Of a stretch of 64,000 bases of DNA, positions 1-6,124 are shown in pieces. Below the pieces are notes generated by a model, which saw nothing but the letters and a program-made list of their open reading frames with translations, did no database searches and had not been told where the DNA came from. Numbering within the stretch: position 1 is the stretch's first letter; each line of letters starts with the position of its first letter. Source of the stretch: Oscillospiraceae bacterium (GTDB lineage Bacteria > Bacillota > Clostridia > Saccharofermentanales > Saccharofermentanaceae); contig CACZGS010000001.1 of NCBI GenBank assembly GCA_902780785.1, positions 62,001-126,000 of the forward strand. Direction: 5' to 3'. The translations under genes and the position numbers were made by a program.

Positions 1-504
1 CTCGCAGATTACTGTGTAGTATATCTTCCTTTGGGACAGGCTATCGGCAGATGGGGCAACTTCTTCAACCAGGAGTGCTTCGGTACTAATACGACTCTTC
101 CCTGGGGTATGACAAGCGCCACAGTTGAGTCTTATCTGCGTACCAGCCCCGAATGCACCACACTCGTATCAACGATGCCGGTTCATCCTACATTCCTTTA
201 TGAGTCTTTAGCTGACCTCGCGATCTTCTTCATTCTGCTTTACATAAGAAAGCATTCGAAGGTACCTTTCGAGACATCATGCGCATATTTCGCACTCTAC
301 GGAACTGCAAGATTCTTCATTGAAGGATTGAGAACAGATTCACTTTATATCGGCAACACGGGCATCAGAACTTCACAGTTCCTGTCACTCATCCTGGTCA
401 TTGCTGCGCTCCTTTACATCGCATATGCAAGATCCAAGAAGATCGGAAAGAGGGGATTCCCTAAGAAGCTCTATGCCGAATTGACCGAGGAAAAGAAGGG
501 CTAA
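1..504 (+). CDS. lgt: Prolipoprotein diacylglyceryl transferase, 5' truncated by window edge
   Basis: Integral membrane enzyme that moves the diacylglyceryl group of phosphatidylglycerol to the lipobox cysteine of prelipoproteins. The frame is open from base 1, so only the last 167 residues are present. The block GRWGNFFNQECFG just inside the window is the Lgt signature (GRxGNFxNxExxG) with its invariant Arg, Asn and Glu. A later FALYGTARFFIEGLRTDSL segment matches the conserved C-terminal YGxxRFxxExxR region, and the protein ends in a membrane helix and a Lys-rich tail. The stop overlaps the rodA start (TAATG), so the two genes are translationally coupled. Two lipoproteins in this window (5630 and 36770) are likely substrates. 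Confidence 0.95.
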   Translation, partial: LADYCVVYLPLGQAIGRWGNFFNQECFGTNTTLPWGMTSATVESYLRTSPECTTLVSTMPVHPTFLYESLADLAIFFILLYIRKHSKVPFETSCAYFALYGTARFFIEGLRTDSLYIGNTGIRTSQFLSLILVIAALLYIAYARSKKIGKRGFPKKLYAELTEEKKG

Positions 505-1628
505 TGGGCAAATTCGATTCCGGCGTTGTTAAACTTCGCGGGAAAGATGGTCTTAAGGCCGTCGACTATTATCTTGTCGTGCCTGTTTTGACCATGACGA
601 TAATCGGCCTTTATGTTCTTCAGAAAGTATTATCCAAAGGTTATGCCGCATATCCCGGAAACTACTACAGACAGATAGTCGCTACTGTAGGCGGTGTTAT
701 CTGCGCACTCATCATCAGTTTGCTTGATGAACACCTTCTTAAGGTTGTAGGACGTATCATCTATGCTGCGGCATTATTCCTCCTGATTCTTGTCCCTATC
801 GACGGTTATTCACTTGCCGGTACGTGGGGCGCCGACTCATGGCTGAAGCTCCCCGTAATCGGTAACTTCCAGCCGTCAGAGCTTGCCAAGATCGGTCTTG
901 TCATGCTGGCGGCCGATATCTTTGAGCAGATGCATAACAAGGAAGTAACCATGCTCAAGGGCTTCGGTAAGATGGCCGCCGTATATGCGCCGCCGATGCT
1001 TCTGATCCTCGCGCAGCCTGACTTCGGTACCGCGATGGTTATCGTATTCACGTTTATCTGCATGTTGTTCGCGTGGGGAGTAAGATACAGATACTTCCTT
1101 CTCGCGTTCTCATCCTGCGTCGTTATCGTCTTCCCGCTGGTATGGTATTTCTACCTGAAGCCTTATCAGAAGGAGAGGATCTTATCGCTCTTGTTCCAGG
1201 GTTCATCACCGCAGTCAGAGTACAATCTCCAGCAGTCCACACTGGCTATTGCTTCAGGCGGTCTTTCAGGGAACCACACAGGTATCCTTACGCCGGTTCC
1301 GGTTAAGGAGAGTGACTTTATTTTCGCTGCCATATCCGAACACATGGGATTTATCGGAACGACCACGGTAATAATCCTGGCGTTCTTCTTCCTCTGCCGA
1401 AGTCTTTATGTTGCCGCGAAGGTTAAATCTAAATCCGCATCTTACATGATGACGGGATTTACCGGATACTTCGCGTTCCACTTCATAGAGAACATGGGCA
1501 TGGCGGTAGGACTTCTTCCTATCACCGGAATCCCGCTGCCTTTCATGAGCTTGGGCGGCACGGCGATGCTCATCAACTTCATTGCGTTCGGAGTAATGCT
1601 AAACATCTCGATCAACCGTAATATGTAG
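504..1628 (+). CDS. rodA: SEDS-family peptidoglycan glycosyltransferase RodA
   Basis: Polytopic SEDS protein of 374 residues that polymerises lipid II glycan strands during elongation, working with a class B PBP. Family blocks are all present: SWLKLPVIGNFQPSELAKI, LAQPDFGTA, the long extracellular loop SPQSEYNLQQSTLAIASGG, ESDFIFAAISEHMGFIG, and the closing LLPITGIPLPFMSLGGTA. It is called RodA rather than FtsW because a separate ftsW lies in the division cluster at 14178 and because this copy has no long N-terminal extension. The start overlaps the lgt stop, and GAGGAAAAG upstream serves as ribosome site. The sucrase-kinase fusion begins 15 bases after its stop. Confidence 0.92.
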   Translation: MGKFDSGVVKLRGKDGLKAVDYYLVVPVLTMTIIGLYVLQKVLSKGYAAYPGNYYRQIVATVGGVICALIISLLDEHLLKVVGRIIYAAALFLLILVPIDGYSLAGTWGADSWLKLPVIGNFQPSELAKIGLVMLAADIFEQMHNKEVTMLKGFGKMAAVYAPPMLLILAQPDFGTAMVIVFTFICMLFAWGVRYRYFLLAFSSCVVIVFPLVWYFYLKPYQKERILSLLFQGSSPQSEYNLQQSTLAIASGGLSGNHTGILTPVPVKESDFIFAAISEHMGFIGTTTVIILAFFFLCRSLYVAAKVKSKSASYMMTGFTGYFAFHFIENMGMAVGLLPITGIPLPFMSLGGTAMLINFIAFGVMLNISINRNM

Positions 1629-1643
1629 TAGCGGAGGCACATC

Positions 1644-3908
1644 ATGAAGGGTAAATGGAGACAGAATCTTCATATCGAACCTCCCGAAGGCTGGATGAAC
1701 GACCCTAACGGATTGTGCTTTTTTGACGGCTTTTATCACGTATATTTCCAATATTCACCGGGCACCCCGAATGGCGAAAGTGTACGCCGCTGGGGCCATT
1801 ATGTGAGCCCTGATCTTCTCTCTTGGAAATACAAGGGCATTGTTCTTGATGCCGACATTCCCGAAGACCGCGACGGCGTATTCTCCGGCTGCGCTCTGCC
1901 TTCGGATGATCACATTGATTTCTTCTATACAGGCAATGTCATGGAAGAAGGCGAGCACGATTATGTGCTTGAAGGAAGAGGCGCGAATGTCATTCATGTC
2001 TCTTCTCCAGACGGTTATTCCATGTCTTCGAAAAAGGTCCTTCTCCGCAATATCGATTATCCTGATTTCTGTTCCTGTCACGTAAGAGATCCCAAGGTGT
2101 GGATCGAAGACAGAATGTATAAGATGGTACTGGGTGCACGCACCAAGGACGATAAAGGTTGCGTGCTTTTCTATGAAGGAAAGAGCATCGAATCGCTTAA
2201 ATATAAGAAATGCTATTATGCTCCAGACATGGGTTATATGTGGGAGTGCCCTGACCTCTTTGAGATAGAAGGGAAGAAGTTCCTCGCATTTTGTCCGCAG
2301 GGAATCCCGCAAGGTGAATTCAAATATCAGAACCTGTTCCAGAGCGGATACTTCACTCTTGAAGGTGATGAACTTTCAGATTTTGAAGAGTTCGATTACG
2401 GCTTCGATTTCTATGCGCCGCAGACGTTCGCTATACCTGACGGCAGAAGACTTCTCATAGGATGGATGGGGATCGGCGACGGTTCTTATACCAACCCGAC
2501 AACAGATCTCGGCTGGCAGCATTGTCTTACTTTGCCGCGCGAACTGACTGTATCAGAAGACGGCAATATCCTGCAAAATCCCATTCGCGAACTTGATTCT
2601 CTGAAGAGGAAAACAAAGCCTGTCGAAGGCGAGGCTTGGGAAGGATTGCCTTTCGAAGTCAATGCATCTGAATTTGCAGATAACGTATCGGTAAGCATTT
2701 CAGGTGCTGAGATAACATGGGATAGTATAAGCGGAGTTTTAAGTCTGCATTTTACAAACGGCGAAGGCTTTGGCAGAAGTGAGAGGAAGATCAGGTTATC
2801 TTCTCTTGAATCGCTCCGTATCATTGCTGATGTATCTTCGCTGGAAATATATATCAACGGCGGCCGCTATGTAATGGGTACGAGATTCTATCCGGAGCAC
2901 CGCCAGGTTAAAGTCGCAGTTAACGGAGCTTCCGCTTCTGTCAGCACATTAAGGCTTAACGACACGCTTGTTGCGATCGGTGAAGCTCTGATAGATTTCA
3001 TTCCTGATAAGAAGGGCTGCGAATTCCACGAAGTGGGTTCTTTCTCTCCTGCAACAGGCGGCGCTCCCGCTAATGTCTGCGGTGCATATTCCAGATTAGG
3101 CGGCAAGGCCCGCATGATCACCCAGCTGGGTAAAGATCCTTTCGGCGACGTCATAACCAGAACGCTGAATGAAGCAGGTGTTGATACTTCTTATATCTCA
3201 TATACGACGGAAGCAAATACCGCGCTCGCATTCGTAAGTCACACGACAGACGGGAAGAGCACTTATTCTTTCTACAGGAATCCTTCGGCGGATATGCTTT
3301 TCGAGCCCTCCGAAGTAACAGGCGAGATGCTCGATGACTGTTATGCGCTCCATTTCTGCAGCGTGTCTTTAGGTGATTTTCCGATGAAGGATGCTCACCG
3401 TGCAGCGATCACTATTGCGAGAAGACAGGGCGCGATCGTAAGCTTCGATCCTAATCTTCGATTCATGCTCTGGGATGACAGGGATGCTCTTAAGAGAGTT
3501 ATCTGGGAATTCCTGCCTGACTGTGACATCTTGAAGATCTCAGATGAAGAACTTGAGTTTATTACCGGAACTGCAGATATGGGCGAGGCGCTTCCGCTTT
3601 TGTTCGTCGGAAGTGTAAAGCTCGTTATCCTGACCAAAGGAAAGGACGGCGCTGACTGCTACAGTGCTTCAGGCTGTGCATCTTCCGTAAGCCCCTCTGT
3701 TACTGCTGTTGATACCACCGGTGCAGGCGACGGCTTCATCGGTTCGTTCCTGTGGAAACTGAGATCATCAGGAATTACAAAAGAATCACTGGGTGACTGT
3801 CCGCTTTCCGTTATTAAGGAGTGCCTCGACTTCGCCAACCGTTTCTGCGCGATAAGCGTACAGAGAAAAGGCGCGATCCCGTCTTATCCTGAGCTCGGGG
3901 AATTGTAA
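1644..3908 (+). CDS. Sucrase-fructokinase fusion (GH32 beta-fructofuranosidase + PfkB kinase)
   Basis: A 754-residue cytoplasmic protein (no signal peptide) made of two normally separate enzymes. Residues 1 to about 300 are a GH32 five-blade propeller with the three catalytic motifs: WMNDPNG (nucleophile Asp20), RDP near residue 149 and EC near residue 201 (acid/base). A short beta-sandwich follows to about residue 435. From about residue 438 to the end is a complete PfkB sugar kinase, starting LVAIGEALIDF and carrying the DTTGAGD signature at residues 690-696 with its catalytic Asp. The likely job is splitting sucrose or sucrose 6-phosphate and phosphorylating the released fructose. The start is fixed by GGAGG six bases upstream. 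It follows rodA closely and has no transporter beside it. Confidence 0.9.
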   Translation: MKGKWRQNLHIEPPEGWMNDPNGLCFFDGFYHVYFQYSPGTPNGESVRRWGHYVSPDLLSWKYKGIVLDADIPEDRDGVFSGCALPSDDHIDFFYTGNVMEEGEHDYVLEGRGANVIHVSSPDGYSMSSKKVLLRNIDYPDFCSCHVRDPKVWIEDRMYKMVLGARTKDDKGCVLFYEGKSIESLKYKKCYYAPDMGYMWECPDLFEIEGKKFLAFCPQGIPQGEFKYQNLFQSGYFTLEGDELSDFEEFDYGFDFYAPQTFAIPDGRRLLIGWMGIGDGSYTNPTTDLGWQHCLTLPRELTVSEDGNILQNPIRELDSLKRKTKPVEGEAWEGLPFEVNASEFADNVSVSISGAEITWDSISGVLSLHFTNGEGFGRSERKIRLSSLESLRIIADVSSLEIYINGGRYVMGTRFYPEHRQVKVAVNGASASVSTLRLNDTLVAIGEALIDFIPDKKGCEFHEVGSFSPATGGAPANVCGAYSRLGGKARMITQLGKDPFGDVITRTLNEAGVDTSYISYTTEANTALAFVSHTTDGKSTYSFYRNPSADMLFEPSEVTGEMLDDCYALHFCSVSLGDFPMKDAHRAAITIARRQGAIVSFDPNLRFMLWDDRDALKRVIWEFLPDCDILKISDEELEFITGTADMGEALPLLFVGSVKLVILTKGKDGADCYSASGCASSVSPSVTAVDTTGAGDGFIGSFLWKLRSSGITKESLGDCPLSVIKECLDFANRFCAISVQRKGAIPSYPELGEL

Positions 3909-4013: not shown

Positions 4014-4033
4014 AAGTGAAGGAGGCAATCAGC

Positions 4034-4594
4034 ATGACTGATGAAGGTATCGTAGATCTATATTGGGACCGCAATGAAGCTGCCATAACTGAGACGGATC
4101 TGAAGTATGGCAGGTACTGCTTCTCGATCTCATATAATATTCTCTCCAACAAAGAGGATTCTGATGAGTGTGTTAATGACACTTATAATGCTGCCTGGAA
4201 TTCAATGCCTCCGCAAAGGCCTGTTATCCTGTCGGCATTCCTGGGGAAGATAGTAAGGAATATCTCGCTTAACAGATATAAGGAAATCACTGCTCAAAAG
4301 CGCGGCGGCAATCAGATGGAACTTATACTTGATGAGCTCGGCGAGATAGCTTCAGATATGCCCGGTCCTGATGACAGAGTAATACAGACGCAGCTGGTAA
4401 AGGCGATCAACGAATTCCTTGCAGGATTGCCGGCAGAAAAGAGGATCATGTTCGTGCGCCGTTACTGGTATGCGGACGATATAGGAGCGATCGCGAAAAG
4501 AATGGGGATGAGCGCGAATAACGTGTCAGTGGAGATCCGCCGCATCAGGCTTAAGCTCCGCGGCTATCTGATCGAAAGGGGGTTCGATGTATGA
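4034..4594 (+). CDS. ECF-type RNA polymerase sigma factor
   Basis: Sigma-70 family protein of 186 residues. The N-terminal half (about residues 15-85) fits region 2, with the DECVNDTYNAAWNSMPPQ stretch and RNISLNRYK near its end. Residues about 120-180 fit region 4, a helix-turn-helix with ANNVSVEIRRIRLKLRGYL as recognition segment. The start is ATG 4034 because GGAGG (4021-4025) lies 8 bases upstream, while an in-frame GTG at 4016 would place that site inside the gene. It overlaps the next gene by ATGA, the usual layout for a sigma factor and its membrane regulator. The signal it answers to is unknown. Confidence 0.85.
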   Translation: MTDEGIVDLYWDRNEAAITETDLKYGRYCFSISYNILSNKEDSDECVNDTYNAAWNSMPPQRPVILSAFLGKIVRNISLNRYKEITAQKRGGNQMELILDELGEIASDMPGPDDRVIQTQLVKAINEFLAGLPAEKRIMFVRRYWYADDIGAIAKRMGMSANNVSVEIRRIRLKLRGYLIERGFDV

Positions 4595-5613
4595 GAAAAG
4601 AAGACTTTTTCAGAACGCTCGAAAATATAGACGATAACTATATCAGCGAGGCGGAAAACTACAAGGCCCCTAAGATCAGCAGCAAGTTAATGACGTATAT
4701 AGGGATTGCGGCTTCGCTCCTTATGGTTGCCGGAGTCATTGGCCTTGCCCTGTATATGAATAACAACAGCGCCGTGACCGAAATGTCTGATGTGGAAACG
4801 CAGCTGGTTCCTACCAATGTGGGGATCGATCCGACAGGTGCTGTCTCAACATCTAATGAAACGTTTAAGGATCCGACTGATAAGATGAGCATGATCCACG
4901 CTGTGGGAACAGAGATACCTGAGGATACTGTTGTCGTATATTTAAGACTTTCGAGCTCTGCTTATCTTAACGGTTTTATGGGCTGGTATGCTCCCGAGAA
5001 TCAGGACGAGTGGAAGAAAGCGATAGATGATGCAGTAAGCCGTGCTCAAGATAAAGAAGGAGCTCTTCCTGCTGCTGATTCGGTGCCTATCAGCGTAAGC
5101 TGGTTCCATAAAGGGTATTGGGATAATAACGGAGGTTCCGATTATTGGGAGCTGGCAAAAGACGGATCGCTTTGGGGCAGGCGAGAGCCTAATGATGTGC
5201 CGTATTCCAAGCACTATATTGCTCCTGAGGATGCTAAAGAACTTGTAGCGCTGCTGAGGCAGGTGTATGACTTCTTCGGGATCAACCCGATAGGACCTGA
5301 GGAGATTACTGATATCACTTCTGCGGAATTAACCGTTAAAGGCAAGACTTATACATTAGATGATAAGACAAAGCTTGATTATCTTGAAAAGACTTTGAGA
5401 AACGCCAAACCGAACGGTGCTTCAGGCTGTCCGTGGGCAACTCTTAAGATGACAAAGAAAGACGGAACCGTTATCACTATCTCGCTTGCCTGCGACAGCT
5501 GTGCCGTGTGGAATTCTGACGGAATGCATTATAAATATGGCAATTCGGATACTACTGAAAGTGTATATGCTTTGTTCGGGATCGACCTGTCAAAGCTTCA
5601 TATGAGTAATTAA
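4591..5613 (+). CDS. Single-pass membrane protein, probable anti-sigma factor
   Basis: A 340-residue protein with a short cytoplasmic N-terminus (about 33 residues, starting MRKEDFFRTLENIDD), one membrane helix at about 34-55 (YIGIAASLLMVAGVIGLAL) and a large outer domain of about 280 residues. Size, topology and the ATGA overlap with the ECF sigma gene point to a regulator that holds the sigma factor until an outside signal arrives. No zinc-binding HxxxCxxC motif is seen, so it would not be a ZAS-type anti-sigma. The outer domain, rich in Trp and Tyr and with a CDSC motif near the end, is not a family I recognise. The lipoprotein at 5630 follows in the same operon. Confidence 0.65.
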   Translation: MRKEDFFRTLENIDDNYISEAENYKAPKISSKLMTYIGIAASLLMVAGVIGLALYMNNNSAVTEMSDVETQLVPTNVGIDPTGAVSTSNETFKDPTDKMSMIHAVGTEIPEDTVVVYLRLSSSAYLNGFMGWYAPENQDEWKKAIDDAVSRAQDKEGALPAADSVPISVSWFHKGYWDNNGGSDYWELAKDGSLWGRREPNDVPYSKHYIAPEDAKELVALLRQVYDFFGINPIGPEEITDITSAELTVKGKTYTLDDKTKLDYLEKTLRNAKPNGASGCPWATLKMTKKDGTVITISLACDSCAVWNSDGMHYKYGNSDTTESVYALFGIDLSKLHMSN

Positions 5614-5629
5614 GAAAGGAGCTGATGTT

Positions 5630-6124
5630 ATGAGACGTTTAATAACGATTATTACTATTCTTCTGACCGTGTGCCTCATGCTCTGTTCCTGCGGCAAGGT
5701 TAACGGCTATAACAAAAAGGATCTCGTTCCCGTAAATGATAATGCCGGCAATGACAGCATCCTTGCATATGTTGTCGACTATAACGCGGGTAACGATATC
5801 ACCGTAAAGATAAAGAATAATACTGATAAAGTGTTCGCTTACGGCGAGTACTATACGATCCAGGTGTTTATCGAAGGTGTCTGGTATTACGTGCCTTATA
5901 CTGCCGAGAATGTGGTCCATGATCTTGCGCACGAACTGCAGCCGGGGCAGGCTTACACACAGACATACAGTCTTTATCCTTATGGCGGCAAGCTTAATCC
6001 CGGTCATTACAGGATCGCGTGCTGTGATATCGGCGACGGCAGCAACATCTATTATGCGGAATTCAACGTCATGGCGGATATGAGCCTTAAGTGGGAGATC
6101 GTTGAGCCGACTGTCGCGGGATAA
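5630..6124 (+). CDS. Lipoprotein with an immunoglobulin-like beta domain
   Basis: A 164-residue exported protein: a hydrophobic signal (ITIITILLTVCLMLCSC) ends in the lipobox LCSC, so the mature protein should be lipid-anchored at the Cys. The rest has short beta strands (DITVKIKNNTDKVFAYG, YTIQVFIEGVWYYV, LNPGHYRIACCDI), the pattern of Ig-like folds that clostridia keep on the cell surface. It is the third gene of the sigma factor operon, 16 bases after the membrane regulator, with AGAAAGGAG as ribosome site. It may be a target or co-sensor of that system. A terminator follows at once. Confidence 0.7.
   Translation: MRRLITIITILLTVCLMLCSCGKVNGYNKKDLVPVNDNAGNDSILAYVVDYNAGNDITVKIKNNTDKVFAYGEYYTIQVFIEGVWYYVPYTAENVVHDLAHELQPGQAYTQTYSLYPYGGKLNPGHYRIACCDIGDGSNIYYAEFNVMADMSLKWEIVEPTVAG

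Follow-up and report, generated by a model that had tools for sequence, protein, structure and literature searches.

A predicted sucrase-fructokinase encoded by a fused scrB-scrK gene behind lgt-rodA in a Saccharofermentans-related lineage lacking PTS Enzyme I

Background

Why does a gene that appears to join a sucrase to a fructokinase stand directly behind lgt and rodA, in a genome without PTS Enzyme I, and how did it arise? The gene was analysed within a 64,000-nucleotide stretch of DNA (hereafter, the window) from the Saccharofermentanaceae assembly GCA_902780785.1 (contig CACZGS010000001.1, positions 62,001 to 126,000), together with related loci and genomes. Our reading is that it very probably encodes a bifunctional cytoplasmic enzyme of sucrose use, derived from an scrB-scrK pair whose PTS was later lost in the subclade of the window. 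Features read directly from the genomes (the fusion itself, its conservation, selection on both halves, its neighbourhood and the absent PTS genes) underlie this reading, with both enzyme activities and the substrate predicted from them. In the literature searched, the coverage of which was incomplete, we found no description of such a fusion or of consecutive sucrose-use steps in one polypeptide; domain databases may list the architecture.

Results and discussion

The fused gene and its product

The gene (positions 1644-3908, plus strand) is a single open reading frame of 754 codons with an ATG start and zero internal stops, in which three Pfam domains lie in one frame above their gathering cut-offs: Glyco_hydro_32N (residues 10-313, E 1.8e-74), Glyco_hydro_32C (residues 388-437, E 6.4e-9), and PfkB (residues 441-750, E 3.8e-55). 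Membership of both families is clear, PF00251 scoring 251.5 bits (cut-off 22.1) and PF00294 scoring 187.8 bits (cut-off 25.8). The GH32 half (residues 1-438; positions 1644-2957, plus strand) comprises a five-bladed propeller and a C-terminal beta-sandwich and holds the complete triad, namely the nucleophile D20 in WMNDPNG (at 17), D149 in RDP (148-150), and E201 in EC (201). The PfkB half (residues 439-754; positions 2958-3905, plus strand) carries GGAPAN at 472 and DTTGAGD at 690-696, which includes D696. These four residues (D20, D149, E201, and D696) were invariant in 28 of the 28 fused proteins compared. The frame, the Pfam matches, and the motifs thus all agree with an earlier note on this DNA, in which GH32 motifs and a full PfkB kinase were described in one unbroken frame; its placing of the protein in the cytoplasm is likewise borne out by an N-terminus that does not resemble a signal peptide.

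An AlphaFold model of the fusion, for which the window and related-locus sequences served as input, had a mean pLDDT of 92.5 and a pTM of 0.86, with 0 residues below 50. Modelled residues 1-438/441 align over their full length with solved invertases and sucrose-6-phosphate hydrolases (Z about 45), and residues 438-754 align with fructokinases (Z 43.2 for Xylella 3lki). These full-length matches indicate that both halves are complete and that the linker is nearly absent. The junction itself (residues 426-441; positions 2919-2966, plus strand) corresponds, on comparison, to the end of scrB and the start of scrK in split relatives.

The best-scoring kinase model was the fructokinase equivalog NF006957, with 202.4 bits against a cut-off of 450; the split kinase of R. 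bicirculans that stands beside a PTS also falls below it, with 210.8 bits. As the closest solved relatives by both sequence and fold are fructokinases, the kinase half is a predicted fructokinase, assigned by its closest relatives rather than by a curated threshold.

Spread and conservation of the fusion

The same fusion was found in approximately 60 loci, representing 37 distinct versions, in a scan of GTDB genomes and further relatives. All fit the window's genus (named members: Saccharofermentans and rumen 'Ruminococcaceae' or 'Clostridiales' MAGs), in which the fusion is carried by 29 of the 59 genomes searched. A missed stop or frameshift error joining two real genes, which the earlier note had feared near base 2950 and for which only the split arrangement of close relatives speaks, has a negligible chance of being correct, given that 37 distinct fused sequences from independent assemblies read openly across the same junction. 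Pairwise dN/dS values against the window copy are low in both halves (GH32, 0.07-0.14; PfkB, 0.05-0.09), indicating strong purifying selection that maintains each of them.

Two loci depart from this simple picture. In L062:6001-8262, synonymous divergence from the window copy is fourfold greater in the GH32 half than in the kinase half (0.318 vs 0.081), which suggests within-gene recombination between close strains. Genome G043 (79% complete, 5% contamination) holds two fused copies (L016 and L158), one from each PTS-free subclade and both directly after rodA; it is probably two species in one bin.

The search for other GH32-PfkB fusions and their phylogeny, which had been proposed as a check, returned one clade and, independently, a fusion of reverse order. 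GH32-first candidates in other families (G351, G240, and G461; frames of 821-852 aa) proved to be neighbouring genes that share a frame but are separated by a stop codon. Outside the window's genus, the only candidate that is a true fusion is that of G317, which belongs to another family and has a genome of 6.4 Mb; its 829-aa PfkB-GH32 protein has the kinase first. At locus L144 (1042-3531, minus strand), the genes upstream look like those for an ABC sugar-binding protein and a permease. Of 100 genomes of this distant, large-genome genus (g60), about 27 have full-length matches with 57-100% identity, and all 12 of the reverse-order loci inspected (the L144, L210-L221 group) are single long frames of 820-859 aa with both kinase motifs. 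The PfkB-GH32 protein of g60 is of independent origin and from a different GH32 branch. The occurrence of opposite domain orders in two unrelated lineages implies that this pairing in one chain arose at least twice, which suggests a selective advantage.

Origin from an overlapping gene pair

In the nearest relatives, scrB and scrK are separate and adjacent, stand in the same order, and commonly overlap by 8 or 11 nt, with the two frames offset by one at the overlap. A Shine-Dalgarno-like GGAGGT lies inside the 3' end of scrB in these split relatives, and scrK starts with TTG in several split members of the same genus. Short gene overlaps are known to link the translation of the two genes and to be over-represented among subunits of the same complex (PMC10666635), and the short scrB-scrK overlap accordingly fits a gene pair already produced in equal amounts. 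To join the frames, one base net would have had to be lost (or two gained) ahead of the scrB stop, a step that we would place in a lineage possessing the sucrose PTS. The fusion probably formed from the scrB-scrK overlap in a single event.

In a concatenated tree, every fused gene groups with split genes of the same genus. The best tree implies two fusion origins, one in the PTS-linked subclade and one in that of the window: the PTS-linked fused clade is placed with split genes (support 92/74), the fused group is monophyletic in just 12% of bootstraps, and the junctions differ, the PTS-linked proteins keeping the old kinase start Met ('PMKL') that the window's subclade has lost. Against this, a single origin is not rejected (AU test p 0.347), and the position beside lgt-rodA, a shared derived feature of both fused subclades that no split gene displays, favours one origin. 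We therefore regard two separate fusions as a possible but doubtful alternative to a single one.

One locus, L031 of genome G044 (1414-3675), has scrB and scrK in frame with just one TGA and a few codons between them, and encodes a Trp at position 80 and a shortened GH32 C-terminal end. It may represent a fusion in decay or one that has split again.

Neighbourhood

The window begins with the 3' part of lgt (positions 31-504, plus strand; Pfam LGT), the start of which lies before the window, followed by a rodA-type gene (504-1628, plus strand; Pfam FTSW_RODA_SPOVE) that ends 15 nt short of the fusion. Of 38 distinct fused loci, 31 have a rodA gene upstream, compared with none of the split loci, and in 31 distinct loci of the window's subclade the fusion starts 1-52 nt after rodA. 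Of the proposal that the fusion rides in an lgt-rodA operon, the neighbourhood therefore stands, and operon membership is suggested by the 1-52 nt spacing and its conservation. We infer on these grounds that the fusion is co-transcribed with rodA; promoter matches around the two genes were below shuffle expectation. No PTS or transporter gene is adjacent in the window, in agreement with what had been noted before.

Between the fusion and mraZ (window 4016-6124) lie an ECF-type sigma factor gene, a membrane-protein-like gene with no Pfam match, and a gene for a Big_14-domain lipoprotein-like protein; same-sized counterparts are present in the near relatives L062 and L089 and absent in L064-L066. 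In a further locus (L077:3739-4863), lgt has a long acidic low-complexity C-terminal tail.

Loss of the PTS

Among split relatives, a PTS IIBCA gene stands directly upstream in 39 of 60 distinct loci, often with Enzyme I nearby; the one copy that was scored on family models fell between the beta-glucoside and sucrose PTS models. One fused subclade (L081, L084, and L096) retains the PTS and Enzyme I beside the fusion, the order in L084 being lgt, rodA, a PadR regulator gene, a HAAS-domain gene, PTS IIBCA, the fusion overlapping its end, and ptsI, and Enzyme I was found in all 3 genomes of this subclade that were searched. By comparison, all 26 genomes searched from the window's fused subclade, many of them 90-100% complete, lacked Enzyme I, in a search that did detect it in 11 relatives and in those control genomes where it was expected. 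The window's genome contains neither PTS Enzyme I nor PTS EIIC, and no PTS gene lies near the fusion in its subclade. No transporter was recognised by eye among the neighbour proteins read for five PTS-free split genes (L101, L129, L138, L148, and L152).

The order of events would then be fusion followed by PTS loss: the window's subclade would have lost scrA and ptsI and kept the fusion right behind lgt-rodA, such that in this lineage the fusion appears to have outlived its former sugar-uptake system.

Substrate of the GH32 half

Because Enzyme I is absent from the window's subclade, sucrose-6-phosphate is not expected to be supplied, and free fructose would require a kinase; the substrate is thus probably free sucrose (or short fructosides) rather than sucrose-6-phosphate. 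Scores on the sucrose-6-phosphate hydrolase model TIGR01322 (cut-off 356.4) point the same way, with the PTS-linked members tested passing (363.1 for the fused L084 and 375.2 for the split L117) and the PTS-free members tested missing it (345.7 bits for the window protein and 319 for another). They also agree in direction with one of the few consistent differences between PTS-linked and PTS-free GH32 sequences, residue 80. This residue, which we take to be equivalent to Phe74 in the fructose-binding subsite of the Thermotoga invertase, is Tyr in all 48 distinct PTS-linked sequences, whereas 20 of the 22 sequences from genomes without Enzyme I have Phe, the exceptions being G053 (Tyr) and G044 (Trp). 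The correlation with the PTS is drawn from two well-supported independent comparisons, or four on the best tree, with G053 left out of this count as a duplicate row. Since 7vco, deposited under the molecule name sucrose-6-phosphate hydrolase, also has Phe at this position, Phe alone does not define use of free sucrose, and the Tyr/Phe pattern is best regarded as a lead on a substrate shift rather than a demonstration.

Two other substrates have to be weighed. The main substrate might be a short fructan (kestose or nystose) or another beta-fructoside instead of sucrose: GH32 enzymes of gut Clostridia, sucrose-6-phosphate hydrolases included, hydrolyse short fructooligosaccharides (PMC7833758), and the window's genome has many ABC sugar-binding proteins. 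Set against this, the nearest relatives adjoin a PTS of the sucrose/beta-glucoside type, a class that imports small sugars under a size restriction (PMC7833758), and we consider a fructan substrate rather unlikely. Continued action on sucrose-6-phosphate, through an unrecognised route or with PTS genes merely missing from incomplete assemblies, would fit a GH32 half that belongs to the scrB subfamily, a fused subclade that adjoins scrA and ptsI, and a separate solved sucrose-6-phosphate hydrolase that shares Phe at position 80. It is decidedly improbable, given the 26 of 26 subclade genomes lacking Enzyme I, many nearly or fully complete, where 11 relatives were positive in the same search, the missing EIIC in the window's genome, and the score under the hydrolase cut-off; of a sucrose PTS that would supply such an enzyme, the window's genome has neither Enzyme I nor EIIC.

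A second GH32 gene in the window's genome (L188:8047-9096, minus strand; 349 aa) encodes the N-terminal domain only, and similar short matches recur across the genus. As a candidate sucrose locus it was rejected: it adjoins serA and an aminotransferase gene, with no transporter in the open reading frames scanned.

Proposed role and implications

Under the preferred reading, the GH32 half would split free sucrose (or a short beta-fructofuranoside) into glucose and fructose, after which the covalently joined PfkB half would use ATP to convert the fructose to fructose-6-phosphate, which enters glycolysis. A separate ROK glucokinase would take care of the glucose; the genome encodes two ROK kinases, one of which is nearest to ROK glucokinase, at a score below the curated cut-off. 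No sucrose importer was identified in the window's genome, although its many ABC sugar-binding proteins could serve in uptake. The substrate would most likely have shifted from sucrose-6-phosphate to the unphosphorylated sugar after PTS loss. A fuller scenario, which we offer tentatively, is that a sucrose-6-phosphate hydrolase fused to its kinase and, once its PTS was gone, became adapted to free sucrose by a Tyr-to-Phe change in the active site at residue 80 while coming under housekeeping (lgt-rodA) expression, and that, in a cell without a PTS to take free fructose back up, the fusion may help to keep or channel it; fructose channelling is not yet supported as a claim.

Within the genus, split and fused genes each occur both with and without a PTS, a natural series that could be used to test why fusions form, what role they play in handling free fructose, and how a sucrose-6-phosphate hydrolase adapts after transporter loss. 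The fusion might also find application as a compact module for sucrose use.

Comparison with known systems

The solved single-domain proteins 7vco, 1uyp/1w2t, and 6nu7 (GH32) and 3lki and 5eyn (fructokinase) match the respective halves over their full fold (Z 40-46), but no solved chain among the fold matches listed contains both domains, as the window protein does. The reverse fusion of g60 (L144/L210, 829 aa) joins the same two families, but with the kinase first and GH32 second. Closer in design are the PTS-linked fused ScrB-ScrK proteins of YRB3002 (L096), L081, and L084, which have the same domain order as the window protein and, in L081 and L084, the same lgt-rodA neighbourhood; unlike it, they stand beside scrA (PTS IIBCA) and ptsI, carry Tyr80, and have other junction residues. 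The known counterpart is the ScrB and ScrK pair of the sucrose PTS operon scrA-scrB-scrK, as in Ruminococcus albus and R. bicirculans, which shares the two families, the gene order, and the consecutive steps, at 53-54% identity in the GH32 half and 58-60% in the kinase half. Whereas Ruminococcus has two proteins and a PTS, the window has one polypeptide in a genome without Enzyme I. The fusion is a new form of this known ScrB and ScrK pathway pair.
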